Source of the DNA: Ectothiorhodospiraceae bacterium
GTDB taxonomy: Bacteria; Pseudomonadota; Gammaproteobacteria; XJ16; Halofilaceae
DNA: 40,954 nt
Direction of reading: 5' to 3'
Assembly: GCA_007134775.1 (NCBI GenBank)
Contig: SLKC01000160.1
Coordinates: forward strand, 1 to 40,954
Shown here: in pieces, positions 23,462-35,833 of the stretch
Layout of the letters: every line of letters starts with the position of its first letter
Position numbering within the stretch: the stretch's first letter is position 1
The notes under the pieces: model-generated
The model's database searches: none
What the model was told of the DNA's origin: nothing
What the model saw: only the letters and a program-made list of their open reading frames with translations
Made by a program: the position numbers and the translations under genes

Positions 23462-25363
23462 ATGCCCCCAACCCAACCCCCTCCCTCGTCCCAAAGTACA
23501 GGCCAGGCACAGGACATCGAGCGCATCGCGAGCGCATCGATGTGGTGCAACCTCGATCGCGCTGTCATCGCCAGTATGGTCGAGACGGGCGAGATCATCG
23601 AACTCGTGCCGCAGGATTACCTCTTTCGCGCCGGTGATCCCTACCGCCGCCGCGTCTATGTCCACCTCAAAGGCGAGCTGGAACAGACCTCCGGCGGCGG
23701 TGATGTGCGCCACGCCGAGCCCGGTGATCTGATCGGGCTCGCCAGCTATCTCGATGGGGATAACTACCGCTCCACGGCACAGGCGCTATCGTCGTGCCGG
23801 GTGCTCGCCATGCCATCGGCGACGGTACAGCAACTAGAACGCGAGTCCGCCGCCTTCTTCGAAGCGGTGAACCGAGCGCTGGCGGCGCGGATGCGCAAGA
23901 CGCGGGTAATGCGCCAGGCGGTACGCGGCACCCTCTCCCGCCCCGTCCACGAAATCATGCGCATCGGGCTGAGCACCTGCACCCGGGATACGACGCTGCG
24001 CGAGGCCTGCCGGATGCTGGCGGAGCGGCAGGTCTCGGGTATTGGCGTGGTCGACGACAACAACGCGCTGCTCGGTCTGGTCACGCCGATGGCGATCGCA
24101 CGTGCCGTGGCGCTCGAGAATATCGGCCCGGATGAGCCAGTCGGCGATTCGATGGAGCCGGCGCCGAAGGCGACGCTGGAAACCCCGCTGTGGGAGATCG
24201 AGCAGCTACAACAGCGCCGGGGCGCGCGCGAGATCGTCATCGTCAACGACGCCGACACGCCCGTGGGCACGGTCTCCGAGACCGAGTTGAGCCGGGCGCT
24301 GGCAACCCCGCCGCAGACGCTGGACAGCGAGATCCGCATGGCAGCGGACCTCGCGACGCTCGCGCGCCTGCGCCAGCATGTGCCCGCGGCGGCCCGTCGC
24401 GTGCACGAGAGCCACCGCAGTGTCGGCATGGCGATCCGCTCGCTCACCGAGCTCCATCTTGCCCTGCAGCATCGCTGCACCGAACTCATCGTGGAGCGCA
24501 TGGAGGCGGAAGGGCACGGCCCTCCGCCTGCGCGCTTCGCTCTGATCATCATGGGCTCCGGGGGGCGCGGCGAGATGATGCTGCGCCCCGATCAGGACAA
24601 CGGCCTGATCCTCGAAGACGACATCGACGAAGCCGGGCAGGAGTGGTTCCGCATCATGGCGGAGTACCTGAATCCCGCCCTCGACGAGATTGGTTACCGG
24701 CTCTGCCCCGGCGACGTGATGGCGCGCAATCCCGAATACCGCCGCACGCTCTCCGGCTGGCAGGAACGCATCCGTGCGCTGATCGCGGACCCAAGCCGGG
24801 CCGATGCCCGCTGGTCATCGATCGTGTTCGACTTCGCCACGCTCTACGGCGACGACCGGCTGACCGCGGATCTGCGCCGCAAGCTCAATGAAGAGCTCGC
24901 TGAGGGCCGCGGGCGCATGCTGTTTCGCATGATGGCGAGCGATGATGCCGAGAGCCGCCATCCGCTCGGCCTGTTCAACCGCCTGATCACCACGCGCCAC
25001 GAGGGCCGCAACGTCATCGACATCAAGCGCACGGGGTTGCGTATCCTCGTCGATGGTCTGCGCATATTCGCCCTGCGTGAGGGCATTAGCCGCAGCAAGA
25101 CCCTGGAGCGCATCGCCTCGCTGCGCCGCCTCGGCGTCTTCGATCGCGAGTTCAGTGAGACCCTGCGGATTGCCTTCGAGGAGCTGCAGGACCTGCTGTT
25201 CAGCCATCAGCTCGCCCAGGTCGACCGCGGCGAAACGCCCGACACCCTCCTCGATGTCGATCGGCTGTCGAGCCGCGATCTCGAGCGCCTGCGGGTCGCC
25301 CTGCGCGCGGCGCGGCGGATGCGTGAGCGCCTCCAGGCGACCTTCGGCTTCATCCTGCGCTGA
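23462..25363 (+). CDS. cNMP-CBS-DUF294 nucleotidyltransferase, copy 1
   Basis: 633 residues in four parts: cyclic-nucleotide-binding-like beta roll (about 28-140), two CBS motifs (about 155-282), nucleotidyltransferase domain (DUF294, about 325-470) and C-terminal helical substrate-binding domain (about 480-630). The transferase core is intact: GSGGRGE at 365-371 and PDQDNGLI with D377 and D379, as in GlnD/KNTase-like enzymes. What is transferred, and to what, is unknown. The ATG at 23462 has a weak ribosome-binding site. It is 4 nt ahead of a DEDDh exonuclease gene; a close paralogous pair lies at 31151-33775. In gammaproteobacteria such pairs are known near acs/actP, consistent with acs here. 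CBS and cNMP modules imply nucleotide-controlled activity. Confidence 0.88.
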   Translation: MPPTQPPPSSQSTGQAQDIERIASASMWCNLDRAVIASMVETGEIIELVPQDYLFRAGDPYRRRVYVHLKGELEQTSGGGDVRHAEPGDLIGLASYLDGDNYRSTAQALSSCRVLAMPSATVQQLERESAAFFEAVNRALAARMRKTRVMRQAVRGTLSRPVHEIMRIGLSTCTRDTTLREACRMLAERQVSGIGVVDDNNALLGLVTPMAIARAVALENIGPDEPVGDSMEPAPKATLETPLWEIEQLQQRRGAREIVIVNDADTPVGTVSETELSRALATPPQTLDSEIRMAADLATLARLRQHVPAAARRVHESHRSVGMAIRSLTELHLALQHRCTELIVERMEAEGHGPPPARFALIIMGSGGRGEMMLRPDQDNGLILEDDIDEAGQEWFRIMAEYLNPALDEIGYRLCPGDVMARNPEYRRTLSGWQERIRALIADPSRADARWSSIVFDFATLYGDDRLTADLRRKLNEELAEGRGRMLFRMMASDDAESRHPLGLFNRLITTRHEGRNVIDIKRTGLRILVDGLRIFALREGISRSKTLERIASLRRLGVFDREFSETLRIAFEELQDLLFSHQLAQVDRGETPDTLLDVDRLSSRDLERLRVALRAARRMRERLQATFGFILR

Positions 25364-25367
25364 TCGC

Positions 25368-26150
25368 ATGCACTTCCATCAGCTACGCAAGGAACTGGCC
25401 GAGATCACCGAGATCCTGCGCACGCGCTGTGCTCTGGGGCTAAAGCGCCGCGGCCTGTTGTCCGCTTATCCCGCGATACCGCGCCATTCGCGGGTCGACT
25501 ACGAGCGCCTGCTGCGAACCCCGATCCGTCAGGCCCGCTTCGTCGTCCTGGACACGGAGACCACCGGTTTCGAGCCCTACGGCGGCGACGAGCTCGTGCA
25601 GGTCGCCTTCGTCGAGTACCTGGGCTTGGTGCCGACCGGGCGCGAACTCTCCAGCCTGCTGCATCCGCGCATCCCCATTCCCCAACGCAGCACCGAGATC
25701 CATGGCATCACGGACAGCATGGTGGCGGATGCGCCGCGGGCCGGCGAGCTGATCGACACGATCATCGAATTCACCGATGACGCGGTCCTGGTCGGCCACC
25801 ACATCGCCTTCGATCTGCGCTTTCTCAACCGCATCACCCGCCGCCACCGCCTCGGGGAACTGCCCAACCCCCGCATCGACACCGCGATGCTCCATCTCGC
25901 AACCGGGGGCGGGCGCGAGCACATCGGACTCGATCACGTCGCCGCCACCCACGCCATCGCGATCGAGGGGCGCCACGACGCCCGCGGCGATGCCCGCACC
26001 TGCGGGCACATCTTCGCCCACCTCGCCGGTCGCCTGGACGATGGTCGGCTCACCGTGGGCGAACTCATCGAGCGCGTCCATCCCATCGTCGGCCTCTCGC
26101 CCCACCACCCGGCGGAAGCCCAAATGCAGGGCAATCACCGAACGGGTTGA
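25368..26150 (+). CDS. DEDDh 3'-5' exonuclease, copy 1
   Basis: 260-residue DnaQ-like exonuclease. Catalytic residues are complete: D62 and E64 in LDTETTG, D149 in HHIAFDLRF, H203 and D208 in RHDARGDART. A helical N-terminal extension (about 1-50) precedes the nuclease fold and is shared in length by copy 2, so it may bind the partner nucleotidyltransferase. It lacks PHP or polymerase parts and is not the replicative epsilon subunit in this context. The ATG at 25368 lies 4 nt after the DUF294 stop. The substrate could be RNA, DNA or nucleotides added by the partner; unknown. Confidence 0.88.
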   Translation: MHFHQLRKELAEITEILRTRCALGLKRRGLLSAYPAIPRHSRVDYERLLRTPIRQARFVVLDTETTGFEPYGGDELVQVAFVEYLGLVPTGRELSSLLHPRIPIPQRSTEIHGITDSMVADAPRAGELIDTIIEFTDDAVLVGHHIAFDLRFLNRITRRHRLGELPNPRIDTAMLHLATGGGREHIGLDHVAATHAIAIEGRHDARGDARTCGHIFAHLAGRLDDGRLTVGELIERVHPIVGLSPHHPAEAQMQGNHRTG

Positions 26151-26169: not shown

Positions 26170-26203
26170 GTTACGTTCGGTAACAAAGCGTGGTAGCTTT
26201 GTT
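26170..26203. promoter_or_regulatory. GTTAC-N5-GTAAC dyad and adjoining hairpin before the kinase operon
   Basis: GTTAC (26170-26174), GTTCG, GTAAC (26180-26184): the same core and spacing as the dyad after the response regulator gene. An overlapping 8-bp inverted repeat, AACAAAGC (26182-26189) and GCTTTGTT (26196-26203) around GTGGTA, ends 2 nt before ATG 26206. A TGG...TTGCA pattern at 26191-26206 also has sigma-54-like -24/-12 spacing. Probably an autoregulatory site for the NtrC-type regulator. Confidence 0.5.
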
Positions 26204-26205
26204 GC

Positions 26206-26418
26206 ATGGAGACGCCGGGCACCGAACCGAAATCGGGGGGAGGACTGGATCGGGTCATACTGCTGCTCCTGTTCGCCCTGTTCCTGTTCGCCTCGCCCTT
26301 TATGAGCTGGTGGGCCAATGCCGAACTCGCCTGGTATTGGCCGTTCCTGCTATGGGGCCTGCTAATCGCGCTCGTGGCGATCGAGCGCTCGGTGCGGCCG
26401 GGCAGCGATGACGCTTGA
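26206..26418 (+). CDS. small two-helix membrane protein upstream of kinase (CbrX-like position)
   Basis: 70 residues: a polar N-terminus (about 1-15), then two membrane helices (about 17-35 and 43-59: ILLLLFALFLFASPF and WYWPFLLWGLLIALVAI) and a short polar tail. It overlaps the sensor kinase start by 11 nt, implying coupled translation. In Pseudomonas a small overlapping ORF also precedes cbrA, so this may be its positional equivalent; sequence homology was not tested. The ATG at 26206 has no Shine-Dalgarno and sits right after a hairpin; a stop codon (TAG at 26194) rules out an upstream start in this frame. Confidence 0.75.
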   Translation: METPGTEPKSGGGLDRVILLLLFALFLFASPFMSWWANAELAWYWPFLLWGLLIALVAIERSVRPGSDDA

Positions 26419-29358
26419 ACTCTGGCAGCTCTTCGGTGTCGCGGTCGCCTATCTGGCGATCCTCTTTCTCCTGGCCTGGCTCGCCGAACGTGGCTACCTA
26501 CCCGAGGCGATCGCCCGCCACCCGCTGACCTGTACGCTGTCACTCGGCGTCTATGCGACCTCGTGGACCTTCTACGGCAGCGTCGGTTTCGCCCACGACT
26601 CCGGTTTCAATTTCCTGACCATCTACATCGGCGTCACCATCGCGTTCCTGCTCGCGCCGATCCTCCTCGACCCGATCCTGCGCCTGGTCCGCGAGTACCA
26701 GCTCACCTCGGTCGCAGACCTGTTCGCGTTCCGCTATCCGGGGCGTCTGACCGGCTTGGTCGTTACACTGTTCATGCTGATCGGAATCCTGCCCTACCTC
26801 TCACTGCAGATCCACGCGCTGACCCAGTCGGTCGAGGTGCTCACGCGCGAGCCCGCCCACGATCTGCTCGCGCTCGTGTTCTGCGCCATGCTGATCGTCT
26901 TCGCGATCCTCTTCGGGGCCCGCCACATCAGTCCGCGGGAGAAACACAGCGGGCTTGTGGTGGCGATCGCCTTCGAATCGGCGGTCAAGCTGATCGCGCT
27001 GCTTGCGGTCGGGGCATTCGCCATATTCGGCGTGTTCGGTGGTTTCGGCGCCATGGACGAATGGGCGCAGCGCAACCCGGAGGCGCTGGGCAACCTGTTC
27101 GAGCCCATTAGCCAAGGCCCGTGGCTGGCACTGACGCTGCTGGCCTTCGCGGCCGGCTTCCTGCTGCCGCGCCAGTTCCACATGGCCTTCACGGAGAACC
27201 TCGACCCGCAGGGGCTGCGTACGGCGGGCTGGCTCTTCCCCGCCTTCCTGCTCGCACTGAATCTACCGATCGTACCCATACTGTGGGCCGGGCTCGCCAT
27301 GGACATACCGGGTGACCCGGACTTCTTTGTGCTGAGCATCACCCTCGATCATGCGCCGGCGTGGCTTCCCGTGCTGACCTTCATTGGGGGCATCTCCGCC
27401 GCGAGCGCGATGATGATCGTCTCTACGATCGCGCTCGCGGCGATGTGCCTCAACCACCTGATCCTCCCGGCGCGCTTCCTCAGCCCGCGCCCGGAGCCAC
27501 ACCTGTACCGCTGGATCCTCTGGGGCAAACGCGCCCTGATCGCGCTGATCATCCTCGCCGGCTACGGCTTCTACCGGGTCATCGTCCACCACGAGGGCCT
27601 GGTGCAGCTCGGCCTGGTCTCCTTCGTCGCCGTCGCCCAGCTCCTGCCCGGTGTCGCCGGCGTGCTGTTCTGGTCACGGGCGACTCGCGCCGGCTTCATC
27701 GCGGGCCTGCTCGCCGGCGCGCTGGTCTGGTTCGTCATGCTCGTGCTGCCACTGATCGCCGACTCGGCTGCCCTCAGTGGTGACCTCCCGCTGAGCGCCC
27801 TTCTCGACCCCGTATCCGGCGACATCTGGACCGCCGCCACATTCTGGACGCTGGCGCTCAACACCGGCTTCTTCGTGGTCGGCTCCCTCCTCACGCAACC
27901 GACAGAGGGCGAACAGCGCGCTGCCGCGGCTTGCACCGAGCAGCGGGTGACACCGCTGGCCGGCCGCGTCGAGGCCACTTCGCCCGGCGACTTCGAGCGC
28001 AACCTCTCGCGCCTGCTCGGTGCGACGGCCGCGCGCACGGAGGTGCGCAAGGCGCTGGACGAGCTGGGCATGTCGCGCCACGAGCTGCGTCCGGCCGAGC
28101 TGCGCCTGTTGCGCGAGCGCATCGAACGCAACCTCTCCGGACTGGTCGGGCCGGTGTTGGCCCAGGTCATCGTCGATGACCGGCTGCGCCTGGCCCATCG
28201 CTCCCATGTCGCCCTGGCCGACGGCATCCGCTTCATGGAAGAGCGCCTGGCGGATTCGCGCGACGCGCTGCGCGGTGCCATGGCGCAATTGCAGTCGCTG
28301 CAGCGCTACCACCGGGATGTGCTCCAGGAGCTGCCGATCGGCGTCTGCTCGGTCGCCCCCGACGGCGAGATCGTGCTGTGGAATCGCGCCATGGAAGAGC
28401 TCTCCGGGGTGTCGCGGCAGGAAGCAGCGGGTAAACCGCTGCAATCCCTGCCCGCCCCCTGGAACGAGGTGCTGGCGCGTTTCGCACGGGCGAGCGAGCG
28501 CCGGCGCCAGAAGGAGCCCATCCCGTCGCAGGAGCACGCCGAGCGCCGGGTCAATCTGCACAAGGCGTGGATCGCGAATCCGCGCCAGGGTGATGCCCAG
28601 GATAGCGGCAGCCTGGTGCTGCTGGTCGAGGACCGCACCGATGTCGAGACCCTGGAGGCGGAGCTGCGCCACAGCGAGCGCCTCGCCTCGATCGGTCGCT
28701 TCGCCGCGGGTCTCGCCCACGAGGTCGGCAACCCCTTGACGGGCATCGACAGCCTGGCCCAGAACCTGCCCTACGACGATACCCCCAAGGCGCGCGAGGC
28801 GGCATCGAAGGCGATCCGCGAGCAGACCGCACGCATCTCGGCGATTGTTGAATCGCTGCTCGCCTTCGCGCACAGCGGCCGCAAGCAGAGCAGCACCCGC
28901 GAGGCGGTCAACCTCCACGAACTCGTCGAGGAGGTCATCCGGCTGATCCGACTCGGCCAGAAGGAGAAGAATGTTCGCTTCTACAACGAGACCTCGACCA
29001 CGACCGAGGTACAGGGCGATGCGCAGCAGCTCGGCCAGGTCTTCGTCAACCTGCTATCGAATGCGCTCGACGCCTCCGGCCCGGAGCAGGCAGTAGGGGT
29101 CCGCGAGCGCTCCACAGGCGACGAGGTCATCATCGACATCATCGACGAAGGCAGTGGACTCGATCCCGATCACATCGAGCAGGCCTTCGACCCCTTCTTC
29201 ACGACCAAGCCCGTGGGCTGGGGCACAGGCCTCGGGCTCTCGCTGAGCCACGCCATCGTCAGTGATCACGGGGGCACGATCACGCTCGCCCCGAACCAGC
29301 CGCACGGCACGATCGCGACCGTGCGACTCCCTTACTCCCCCTCTCGCGGAGGTGACGC

Positions 29359-29362
<4 letters not shown>
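26408..29362 (+). CDS. CbrA-like symporter-fused sensor histidine kinase
   Basis: 984 residues, the size and layout of CbrA: an SLC5 sodium/solute-symporter-type domain with about 13 membrane helices (1-500), a STAC linker (about 525-605: [16 protein letters not shown]), PAS (about 635-745: [18 protein letters not shown]), HisKA with phospho-accepting H771 in [11 protein letters not shown], and HATPase (about 860-975: [24 protein letters not shown]). It senses, and possibly transports, a small solute coupled to kinase activity; the solute is unknown (histidine for CbrA, acetate-linked for CrbS). Starts inside the small membrane gene and overlaps the regulator by ATGA. The NtrC-type partner makes it CbrA-like rather than CrbS-like. 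Confidence 0.9.
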
Positions 29363-30699
<1,337 letters not shown>

Positions 30700-30738
30700 G
30701 TCGAGCGCTGCCGTTACCGGAAGCAACACCAGCCACCA

Positions 30739-30763
30739 CAGGCGTTACCAATAGTAACGCCTG
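30739..30763. promoter_or_regulatory. perfect 10-bp dyad, probable activator-binding site
   Basis: CAGGCGTTAC (30739-30748), CAATA, GTAACGCCTG (30754-30763). Its centre is about 109 bp upstream of the predicted sigma-54 start, the normal distance for an NtrC-type upstream activating sequence. No T-tract follows, so a terminator for the regulator gene is less likely, though the transcript could still fold here. Confidence 0.65.
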
Positions 30764-30833
30764 CGCCCGGCGCCCGATCCCCCCGAGCGGGTCCATCTCC
30801 CTGCTCAAGCGCGGTTTCCCGCCCCTACGCCAA

Positions 30834-30849
30834 TGGCACGTTTATCGCA
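30834..30849 (+). promoter_or_regulatory. sigma-54 promoter (-24/-12)
   Basis: TGGCACG (30834-30840), four nt, TCGCA (30845-30849): 11 of 12 defined positions of the TGGCACG-N4-TTGCW consensus, with the essential GG and GC 12 nt apart. Start predicted about 30860. It lies downstream of the GAFTGA-bearing regulator gene and its putative binding site. Confidence 0.72.
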
Positions 30850-30859
30850 TGCAGTTTAG

Positions 30860-31077
30860 ATGGACGGCGATCACGCGTCGGCGGGCTGCGTATCCGGGCA
30901 TCGTGGCAGCGCGCTCATGGCACCGCGGATACCAGCGCGCGGTTGCCGCGTGTTACGCCAGTCAGGCTCGACGCCGCCGGATCCGCCGATGCGGACGACC
31001 GGTACGTCACGGACGGGATCCCCGCCCGTCCCGTTGCGGGTGGGACCGCCTGTCGGCGGTCCCACCCGGCTCTTTTC
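30860..31077 (+). ncRNA. candidate sigma-54-dependent small RNA or leader
   Basis: About 218 nt from the predicted start to the T-run of a strong terminator, in a 451-nt stretch (30700-31150) with no credible gene. Three foldable elements: an 11-bp stem with one bulge (30885-30896 with 30926-30936), a 7-bp hairpin (GGACGGG 31011-31017 with CCCGTCC 31025-31031), and the terminator stem. Position right after a CbrB-like gene recalls crcZ of Pseudomonas, but the CA-rich Hfq/Crc-binding repeats of CrcZ are absent, so function and homology are open. It could instead be an attenuated leader of the DUF294 gene at 31151. Confidence 0.55.
31037..31077 (+). terminator. intrinsic terminator before DUF294 copy 2
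   Basis: A 14-bp perfect stem: C plus GGGTGGGACCGCC (31037-31050), TGTC tetraloop, GGCGGTCCCACCC plus G (31055-31068), followed by GCTCTTTT. It lies 70 nt upstream of the GTG at 31151, so it ends the short transcript or acts as an attenuator. Confidence 0.82.
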
Positions 31078-31150
31078 CCGGGCCTGGCGTGGCTGCCGCC
31101 GTCTCTGGTGCGATGCCGCCTACACACAACGATGACCGTGGAGCAAGGGT

Positions 31151-33022
31151 GTGACTCCCGATCGGCAGAACGATCTCGACCGGATTGCAGCGGCCTCCTT
31201 CTGGCAAGCCGTTGAACGCGAAACCATCGATGTCCTGTTCGCCCACGGCGAGGTGATCGAACTCGCTCCCGGCGAGACCGCTTTCGAGGCGGGCGCCCCC
31301 TACCGCGACTTGGTCCACGTGCACATCGAGGGGGAGTTGGAACAGCTCTCGGGCCGGGGCGACCAGCGCATCGCCGAACCGGGTGATGTCCTCGGTTTGG
31401 CCAACTATCTCGACGGGGCCGATTACCGCTCCACCGCCCGCGCGCGCTCCGCCTGCCGCCTGCTCGCCGTGCCGGCCGCCACGGTCAAGCGCCTGGAGCA
31501 CGAGTCTCCCGCGTTCCTCGAAGCAATCAACCGCGCCCTGGCCGCACGCATGCGCAAGGCGCGTCAGGTACGCGAGAGCGTTCGCGGCACGCTGGCTCGC
31601 CCCGTGCGCCAGTTCATGCGCACGGGTCTGATGACCTGCGACGCCAGCACATCGATTGCCGACGCCGCAGCCACCCTTGAGCGCCGCGAGATCGGCAGCC
31701 TGGGCGTGACCGATGACAGCGGCCGGCTGGTCGGTCTGCTGACGCCGCTCAATCTGCTCGGGGCCCTGACGACGGGTGCCGCCCAACTCGATGACTCGGT
31801 GTTCGAGAGCGCATGCCAAGAGCCCTGGACGGTGACGCCGGAGACGCCGCTGTGGCAGGTCGAGGACATCCAGCAGCGCCACCGGGTCAAGTACGTCATC
31901 GTCGTCGATGACGAAGGCACGCCGATCGGGATGATGTCGCAAACCGATCTGGTGCGGGCACTGGCGACGCCCCCGCAGACACTCGATGCCGACATCGAAG
32001 CGGCCCCCGATGTCGAGAACCTCGCCGAGTTGCGCGGCCAGCTGGCCACGGCGGCCCGTCGGGTGCGCGATACCCACCGCAGCGCCGGGACCGCCATCCG
32101 CGCCCTGACCACGACCCACCTGGCGCTGCAGCATCGGCTGATCGAAATCATCCTGGAGCGCATGGAGGCAAACGGCCGCGGACCGCCTCCGGCCCGTTTC
32201 GCCCTGATCATCATGGGGTCGGGCGGTCGCGGTGAGATGCTGCTGGCCCCCGATCAGGACAACGGGTTGATCCTCGAAGACGGCATCGACGCGGGCGCCG
32301 AGTCCTGGTTCGCCGAGTTCGCCGATCAGCTCAACACCGACCTCGACCGCATCGGCTACCCGCTCTGCCCTGGGGGCATCATGGCCTGCCGCGGCGACTT
32401 CCGGCGCACGCTGAGCCAGTGGTGTAACCACGTCTCCCGGCTCGTGAGCAACCCGGCCACCGACGCCGCACGCTGGTCGACGATCGTCTTCGACTTCACC
32501 ACGCAGTATGGCGACGACCGCCTGACGGTTGCCTTGCGCGATCACGTCAATCGGGAGATGCAGCGCGGGCGCGGCCTGCTCAAGCAGATGGCCCACGATG
32601 ACGCCGAGGGCCGGCCGCCGCTGGGCCTGTTCAACCGTCTGCTCACGACCACCCACGAGGGGGTGGAGACCATCGACATCAAGCGCAACGGCCTGCGCAT
32701 CATCGCCGACGCCGCACGCATCTACGCACTCGCCCGCGGCCTCAACCAGGTCAGCACCCACGAGCGCCTGCTCGCCCTCGGCCGCCTCGGCATCTTTGAT
32801 CGCGACTTCGTCGACAGCCTGCGCCTCGCTTTCGAGGAGCTACAGGACCTGCTGCTCGAGCACCAGCTCCAGCAGGCCGCGCGAGGCCAGACGCCCGACA
32901 CGCACCTGCCCGTCAACAACCTGCTGAGCCACGACCGCGAACGCCTGCGTGTCGCCCTGCGCGCCGCGCGACGCGTGCAGGATCGCTTGCAGCAGCAGTT
33001 CGGGGTCTGGGGGGGGATCTGA
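31151..33022 (+). CDS. cNMP-CBS-DUF294 nucleotidyltransferase, copy 2
   Basis: 623 residues with the same four-part architecture as the copy at 23462: cNMP-like roll (about 20-130), paired CBS (about 145-272), nucleotidyltransferase core with GSGGRGE at 356-362 and PDQDNGLI with D368 and D370, and C-terminal helical domain. Both copies keep the catalytic aspartates, so neither looks decayed; the CBS and cNMP pockets differ more, suggesting different ligands. The GTG at 31151 has GGAG 7 nt upstream. The terminator at 31037-31077 separates it from the sigma-54 promoter; no clear sigma-70 promoter is visible in the remaining 70 nt. The exonuclease gene follows 3 nt after the stop. Confidence 0.88.
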   Translation: MTPDRQNDLDRIAAASFWQAVERETIDVLFAHGEVIELAPGETAFEAGAPYRDLVHVHIEGELEQLSGRGDQRIAEPGDVLGLANYLDGADYRSTARARSACRLLAVPAATVKRLEHESPAFLEAINRALAARMRKARQVRESVRGTLARPVRQFMRTGLMTCDASTSIADAAATLERREIGSLGVTDDSGRLVGLLTPLNLLGALTTGAAQLDDSVFESACQEPWTVTPETPLWQVEDIQQRHRVKYVIVVDDEGTPIGMMSQTDLVRALATPPQTLDADIEAAPDVENLAELRGQLATAARRVRDTHRSAGTAIRALTTTHLALQHRLIEIILERMEANGRGPPPARFALIIMGSGGRGEMLLAPDQDNGLILEDGIDAGAESWFAEFADQLNTDLDRIGYPLCPGGIMACRGDFRRTLSQWCNHVSRLVSNPATDAARWSTIVFDFTTQYGDDRLTVALRDHVNREMQRGRGLLKQMAHDDAEGRPPLGLFNRLLTTTHEGVETIDIKRNGLRIIADAARIYALARGLNQVSTHERLLALGRLGIFDRDFVDSLRLAFEELQDLLLEHQLQQAARGQTPDTHLPVNNLLSHDRERLRVALRAARRVQDRLQQQFGVWGGI

Positions 33023-33025
33023 GAC

Positions 33026-33775
33026 ATGGCCGCTGATCGCCCACTCGCCGAACTCGCCGACCGCGTCCGCGCTGGCTACAATCGCCTGCTCTACCGGGGC
33101 ACCCTGGCCGAGCGGCGGGAGCTGCTCGACCGTTGCACCAGCTTCGACCGCGCGGGACTGCTCGCCACCCCGGTCAAGGACGCCCGTTTCGTCATGATGG
33201 ACACGGAGACGACGGGACTCAGCGCCTATGCGGGTGACGAGATCGTACAGGTCGCCCTGCTCGAGTACCGCGGACTCGACCCTACGGGCGAGGAGTACGT
33301 CTCGCTGGTGCAGCCGCCACGCTCCATACCGCCGGAGAGCACGGCCTTCCACGGCATCGACGACGAGATGGTGGCGGAGGCGCCCGCCATCGACGACATC
33401 ATCGACGAGATCGTCGATTTCATCGGGCCAGCCGTGATCGTCGGCCACCATGCCGCCTTCGATCTGCGCTTCCTCAATCGCGTGATGCACCGCTGCCTCT
33501 TCTGCCGGCTGCCACAGCCGACGATCGACACAATGCTCCTATACTTGGCGTTCGGCGGTCGTTTCGGCCACTATGGGCTCGATGAGGTGGCGGCCGCCTG
33601 CGGTGTCAGCGCGGATCACCGGCACAACGCGCAGGCCGATGCGGCGACTTGTGGCGCGATCTTCGCCCACATCGTGCCGCATCTGACGGGGCCCGATGCC
33701 ACGGTGGCCGAGCTGCTTGCCGCGGCCCGCGCGAGCGACAACCGCGACGACGACTCGGCGCAGCCGTCCGTGTGA
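33026..33775 (+). CDS. DEDDh 3'-5' exonuclease, copy 2
   Basis: 249 residues, paralog of the exonuclease at 25368. Catalytic set: D59 and E61 in MDTETTG, D146 in HHAAFDLRF, H200 and D205 in RHNAQADAAT. Also has a helical N-terminal extension of about 50 residues before the nuclease fold, and a variable acidic C-terminus. The ATG at 33026 is 3 nt after the DUF294 stop, so the pair is co-translated. acs follows after 96 nt on the same strand and may share the transcript. Substrate unknown. Confidence 0.88.
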   Translation: MAADRPLAELADRVRAGYNRLLYRGTLAERRELLDRCTSFDRAGLLATPVKDARFVMMDTETTGLSAYAGDEIVQVALLEYRGLDPTGEEYVSLVQPPRSIPPESTAFHGIDDEMVAEAPAIDDIIDEIVDFIGPAVIVGHHAAFDLRFLNRVMHRCLFCRLPQPTIDTMLLYLAFGGRFGHYGLDEVAAACGVSADHRHNAQADAATCGAIFAHIVPHLTGPDATVAELLAAARASDNRDDDSAQPSV

Positions 33776-33871
33776 GCACAACCCGTACAGGCCTGCTGCA
33801 CATGCACGCCGGCACCGCCAGTGGGCAGCCGTAAACGACAACAAGCGAGCAAACGAGAGGGGAGAACTGCG

Positions 33872-35833
<1,962 letters not shown>

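Follow-up and report, generated by a model that had tools for sequence, protein, structure and literature searches.

A gap within the 41-kb window analysed here, which is one entire contig of a 3.06-Mb draft genome, raises the question of what is transcribed from a predicted sigma-54 promoter located between a regulatory gene pair and a metabolic operon. The gap (30700-31150) follows a cbrAB pair (26408-30699), so that the promoter occupies the same position as that of crcZ, and precedes an operon comprising a DUF294 gene, an exonuclease gene and acs. There are several possible variants: the promoter could serve the downstream operon, it could produce a stand-alone small RNA, whether of the CrcZ family or acting by some other mechanism, or it could be the remnant of a promoter whose gene has been lost.

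Genes flanking the gap

The genes on both sides of the gap lie on the forward (+) strand. The upstream pair consists of a cbrA-like sensor kinase gene (26408..29362; PAS, HisKA and HATPase_c domains), with 64% identity to the gene of a congener (G002) and 42-47% to cbrA of Pseudomonas and Halomonas, and an NtrC-type response regulator gene (29359..30699; receiver and Sigma54_activat domains). The original prediction had assigned the latter to a CbrB-like activator, and it is indeed a CbrB orthologue, having 53-55% identity to CbrB of Pseudomonas and Halomonas and cbrA upstream. The downstream operon starts with a cNMP-binding/CBS/DUF294 nucleotidyltransferase gene (31151..33022), whose GTG codon at 31151 is the next start after the terminator described below, and continues with a DnaQ-like 3'-5' exonuclease gene (33026..33775) and the acetyl-CoA synthetase gene acs (33821..35833). 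Both RpoN and Hfq are encoded in the genome.

A second pair of DUF294 and DnaQ-like exonuclease genes is situated directly upstream of cbrA (23462-26150), with 57% identity to the one that follows cbrB. Only distantly related genes (26-29%) are present in the congeners, so the pair seems to have been duplicated in the lineage of the window.

The operator and the sigma-54 promoter

The perfect 10-bp dyad that had been noted in the gap is present at 30739..30763, with no strand assigned (CAGGCGTTAC-CAATA-GTAACGCCTG). It contains the box GTTAC-N5-GTAAC (30744-30758), and this core corresponds to CbrB half-sites, as CbrB of P. putida contacts TGTTAC/GTAACA subsites (PMC6296734). An additional half-site, GTTAC (30713..30717, + strand), precedes the box by 31 bp (by 32 bp in G002), so that the gap has three half-sites in total, at 30713, 30744 and 30754; the congener G002 likewise has three, 32 and 10 bp apart. 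The box arose in none of 5000 dinucleotide shuffles of the gap, and any perfect 10-bp dyad in 1.2% of them.

The 15-bp motif occurs in five copies in the genome of the window, in three copies in G002, and is absent (0 copies) from the congener G001, a genome without a CbrB orthologue. Lacking both the regulator and any box, G001 may be seen as a natural knock-out of the regulon. Three of the five boxes have a sigma-54 site (10-11 of 12 positions) 52-75 bp downstream. In both the window's genome and G002 boxes are found at both ends of cbrAB; the one upstream of cbrA (26170..26184, no strand assigned; C8:29123-29137 in G002) has no well-placed sigma-54 site in either genome, and suggests putative autoregulation by CbrB. 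Elsewhere in the window's genome (L124, G000:C57, 715-1230) a CbrB-type box and an 11/12 sigma-54 site are followed by a gene-poor leader of approximately 270 nt and a small lipoprotein-like gene of about 49 aa, making this locus a candidate for another CbrB target or RNA.

The sigma-54 -24/-12 element (TGGCACGTTTATCGCA, 30834..30849, + strand) matches 11 of 12 consensus positions, as had been claimed, and is the best one in the window on either strand; dinucleotide shuffling of the gap yields a comparable site in 0.4% of cases. By -24/-12 numbering transcription would start near 30860, which places the dyad centre 109 bp upstream of +1 and agrees with the predicted activator distance of about 109 bp. 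Thus, the sigma-54 element, the half-sites at enhancer distance, and cbrB and rpoN in the genome together make up a predicted CbrB/sigma-54 promoter. In G002 an 11/12 sigma-54 site is situated 136 bp after cbrB, compared to 134 bp in the window. Conservation in relatives was at issue for both this element and the terminator: the former is kept in G002, while the latter is found in this genome only.

Another sigma-54-like site, after the terminator (31085, 7 of 12 positions), was rejected as being at chance level (32% of shuffles). A sigma-70 scan revealed no other promoter of the operon; this is weak evidence, as throughout the right half of the window the same scan detects no promoter at all.

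Distribution of the operator and its downstream genes

Among 369 sampled genomes of the class, 37 have a CbrB orthologue. A box with a sigma-54 site was observed in 12 of these 37, versus 6 of the 332 genomes without the orthologue (Fisher p = 2e-9, an optimistic value, since the genomes are related to each other). The distances between the box and the promoter fall into the ranges of 51-54, 63-64 and 75-76 bp and are hence helically phased, although this statistic is optimistic for the same reason.

In all ten other genomes of the class that are readable at the cbrB locus, protein genes lie downstream of the operator and promoter. The cbrB-adjacent promoter precedes a DUF294 gene in five (L148, L149, L151, L153, L156), an SSF symporter gene in three (L157, and L141 and L142 with a tandem F-F version of the box), acs in one (L143), and a urea/branched-chain-type ABC transporter operon in G002, with no terminator in between. 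The gene following the promoter therefore varies even inside the genus. In three further genomes (G091, G127, G081) the box and promoter immediately precede a DUF294 gene of the same kind (+1 and the start codon being 28-49 nt apart), while cbrB is elsewhere; thus, the promoter tracks the DUF294 gene and not merely the position after cbrB. Most relatives have cbrAB in a same-strand cluster of the form (DUF294)-SSF-(DUF294-exonuclease)-acs, the symporter being of the VC_2705 family. The window's own genome also has an SSF sodium:solute symporter gene, on another contig (L119, G000:C3, 1-812), with its own CbrB-type box and a 10/12 sigma-54 site.

The terminator and the predicted short transcript

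The intrinsic terminator with a 14-bp stem was recovered at 31037..31068 (+ strand; 4-nt loop, tail GCTCTTTTCC, -32.7 kcal/mol) and, of the terminator-like sites in the scanned window, it is by far the strongest; its tail has only four U consecutively. The tail reaches 31077. The predicted 291-nt leader from +1 to the DUF294 start codon carries an intrinsic terminator, as a leader with an attenuator would. Until the 3' arm has been transcribed, the 5' arm could instead form pairs with 31022-31030, but 44% of shuffles pair upstream likewise, and by this comparison no competing antiterminator fold above chance was found in the leader. No relative has a terminator between the promoter and the operon.

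The predicted short leader transcript (30860..31077, + strand, approximately 218 nt from +1 to the terminator tail) is unique in sequence to this genome. The part before the terminator, about 180 nt, had been described as structured DNA; as a whole it is no more structured than shuffles (z -0.85), and the value for the full 218 nt (z -3.2) is due to the terminator. A local hairpin at 30885-30936, a region chosen after the fact, is moderately stable (z -2.4, 2 of 200 shuffles). No counterpart of the transcript body beyond short scattered matches was observed among the 368 other genomes of the class, including the congeners G001 and G002; hence neither sequence nor structure is kept in these relatives, as it would be for a conserved Hfq-dependent small RNA. 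Matches of 25 bases to transcript positions 106-130 recur across several genomes of the class and were attributed to chance in GC-rich sequence. The gap shows no similarity to G002, nor to the flanks of the symporter gene and acs. There is no coding signature in the transcript: its small ORFs (for example, 91 aa from 30860) have GC3 of 0.74, compared to 0.84-0.87 in real genes. Rfam searches yielded nothing credible in the window at gathering cut-offs, nor in the gap at E up to 1.

Interpretation of the locus

The reading that we favour, with a probability of about 0.6, is that the DUF294-exonuclease-acs operon is transcribed from this CbrB/sigma-54 promoter, behind a 291-nt leader bearing a lineage-specific terminator, and that the locus is not a crcZ-like gene. 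The original prediction of a discrete transcript as an analogue of crcZ does not agree with the observation that the same operator and promoter serve protein genes elsewhere, whereas the transcript body and the terminator occur in this genome only. As the conserved switch drives acetate-use and uptake genes in relatives, the candidate small RNA most likely represents the initial part of the operon message, truncated by the terminator.

Under the operon reading, CbrB would bind the GTTAC-N5-GTAAC box and the one upstream half-site and, via DNA looping, activate the sigma-54 polymerase at 30834-30849, with transcription starting near 30860. A fraction of transcription would halt at the intrinsic terminator (31037-31077), yielding the leader RNA of approximately 218 nt, and the remainder would read through into DUF294, exonuclease and acs, either by partial read-through or by regulated attenuation. 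CbrA/CbrB would then determine the use of carbon, probably acetate, and a terminator acquired by the leader in this lineage would modulate or dampen it. Two observations are at odds with the operon reading: a strong terminator, not seen there in relatives, lies between promoter and operon, and the leader far exceeds the approximately 20-50 nt found before DUF294 in relatives. If the terminator were fully efficient, the operon could not be served from this promoter, and the small-RNA reading would gain.

That reading, in which the 218-nt RNA is a stand-alone product under CbrB and sigma-54, occupies the position of crcZ but acts by another mechanism such as base pairing, and the operon has its own promoter, seems rather unlikely to us. 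The gene-free transcript bracketed by a promoter and a strong terminator, the position identical to that of crcZ, the Hfq encoded in the genome and the hairpin at 30885-30936 are all consistent with it. It is difficult to reconcile, however, with the absence of the body, apart from short scattered matches, from the 368 other genomes of the class, congener included, with overall structure that does not exceed that of shuffles, with the missing Rfam match, AA dinucleotide and CA motif and the short U run, and with the protein genes that follow the other readable promoters of the same operator type. In a particular form of it, unlikely in our estimate, a true regulatory RNA under CbrB control would have emerged recently through the gain of a terminator in the leader of a CbrB-driven operon; if true, this would offer a route by which crcZ could have originated at the same chromosomal position from the promoter of an acetate or uptake operon.

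Alternatively, the gene that the promoter once drove, for example the symporter gene now on contig C3 or an ABC operon of the G002 type, could have been lost, leaving just the promoter, scraps of the leader and a terminator, and hence a short functionless transcript. The different genes that follow the promoter within the genus, the symporter gene found elsewhere in the genome with its own box, and the lack of conservation of the transcript body would fit this. However, the promoter is intact (11/12) and the box perfect, the gap retains no recognisable trace of the G002 or symporter genes, and a DUF294 gene, a usual target, directly follows; we thus regard such a loss as quite improbable.

Finally, a CrcZ-family RNA titrating Hfq/Crc, for which the position after cbrB and the sigma-54/CbrB control speak, is refuted on sequence and has a negligible chance of being correct: there are zero AANAANAA CA motifs in 30860-31077, in line with the earlier remark that no CA-rich Hfq/Crc motif is seen, and zero AA dinucleotides, without which such a motif cannot form, so that a CrcZ-like mechanism is excluded; the covariance model RF01675 matches neither the window nor its genome, and the CbrB of the window falls outside the only clade that has CA-rich RNAs.

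Comparison with known systems

CrcZ (RF01675) and the window share the position after cbrB and a predicted CbrB/sigma-54 promoter. The window transcript differs in having no CA motifs or AA dinucleotides and no covariance-model match, in being half as long, and in not being conserved. The covariance model found its positive control (L035, 349.6 bits); a scan of seven whole genomes gave no match, the control genomes of that scan being likewise without one. CA-rich transcripts after cbrB were observed at nine loci (Pseudomonas, Serpens, Halomonas, Litchfieldella, Gilvimarinus, Cellvibrionaceae and two further genomes), called by AANAANAA counts (5-24 per locus), the Rfam model confirming the Pseudomonas one only. 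The tested CA-rich loci outside Pseudomonas are missed by the Rfam CrcZ model, and both CbrB orthologues and CA-rich CrcZ-type loci are found outside Pseudomonadaceae (L034, L036, L038, L042, L047).

The half-site spacing at the nine loci is unlike the 10-bp palindrome. In the CbrB tree, several inner forks of which have no resolution, a branch with full support separates these loci from the window, G002, L141 and L142. Only one CbrB clade (Pseudomonas, Halomonas, Cellvibrionaceae) hence has the predicted CA-rich CrcZ-type RNAs.

CrbR and the NtrC-type CbrB are regulators of different types. The CrbS/CrbR (MxtR/ErdR) system controls acs in Pseudomonas and Vibrio (PMC5436829, PMC5715377) and, like the window, couples a CbrA-homologous kinase to the control of acs and of acetate use; in the window, the regulator adjoining acs is CbrB, putatively acting via sigma-54.

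CbrB/sigma-54 promoters of protein operons are already known in P. putida, where the CbrB-dependent sigma-54 promoters include those of crcZ, crcY and the PP2810-13 operon, and where CbrB directly targets protein-coding operons and transporters, among others (PMC6296734). Like the promoter in the window, they have a sigma-54 -24/-12 element with several upstream GTTAC/GTAAC half-sites. However, the half-sites in the window form a tight GTTAC-N5-GTAAC palindrome with a centre spacing of 10 bp, whereas those of P. putida are non-palindromic subsites 20-25 bp apart (PMC6296734); moreover, the DUF294-exonuclease-acs operon is unlike the P. putida targets, and the CbrB of the window is outside the CrcZ-associated group. 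The tight palindromic operator, the linkage to DUF294, symporter and acs genes, and CbrAB outside Pseudomonadaceae were not found in the open-access literature searched.

Contrary to a review in which CbrAB is unique to Pseudomonadaceae (PMC8871633), CbrB orthologues and the conserved, predicted GTTAC-N5-GTAAC/sigma-54 operator are present in many gammaproteobacterial families. This suggests that in most lineages the promoter after cbrB drives genes for carbon uptake and acetate and that CrcZ is one occupant of the site, a testable picture of how the carbon-repression RNA of Pseudomonas reached its chromosomal place.
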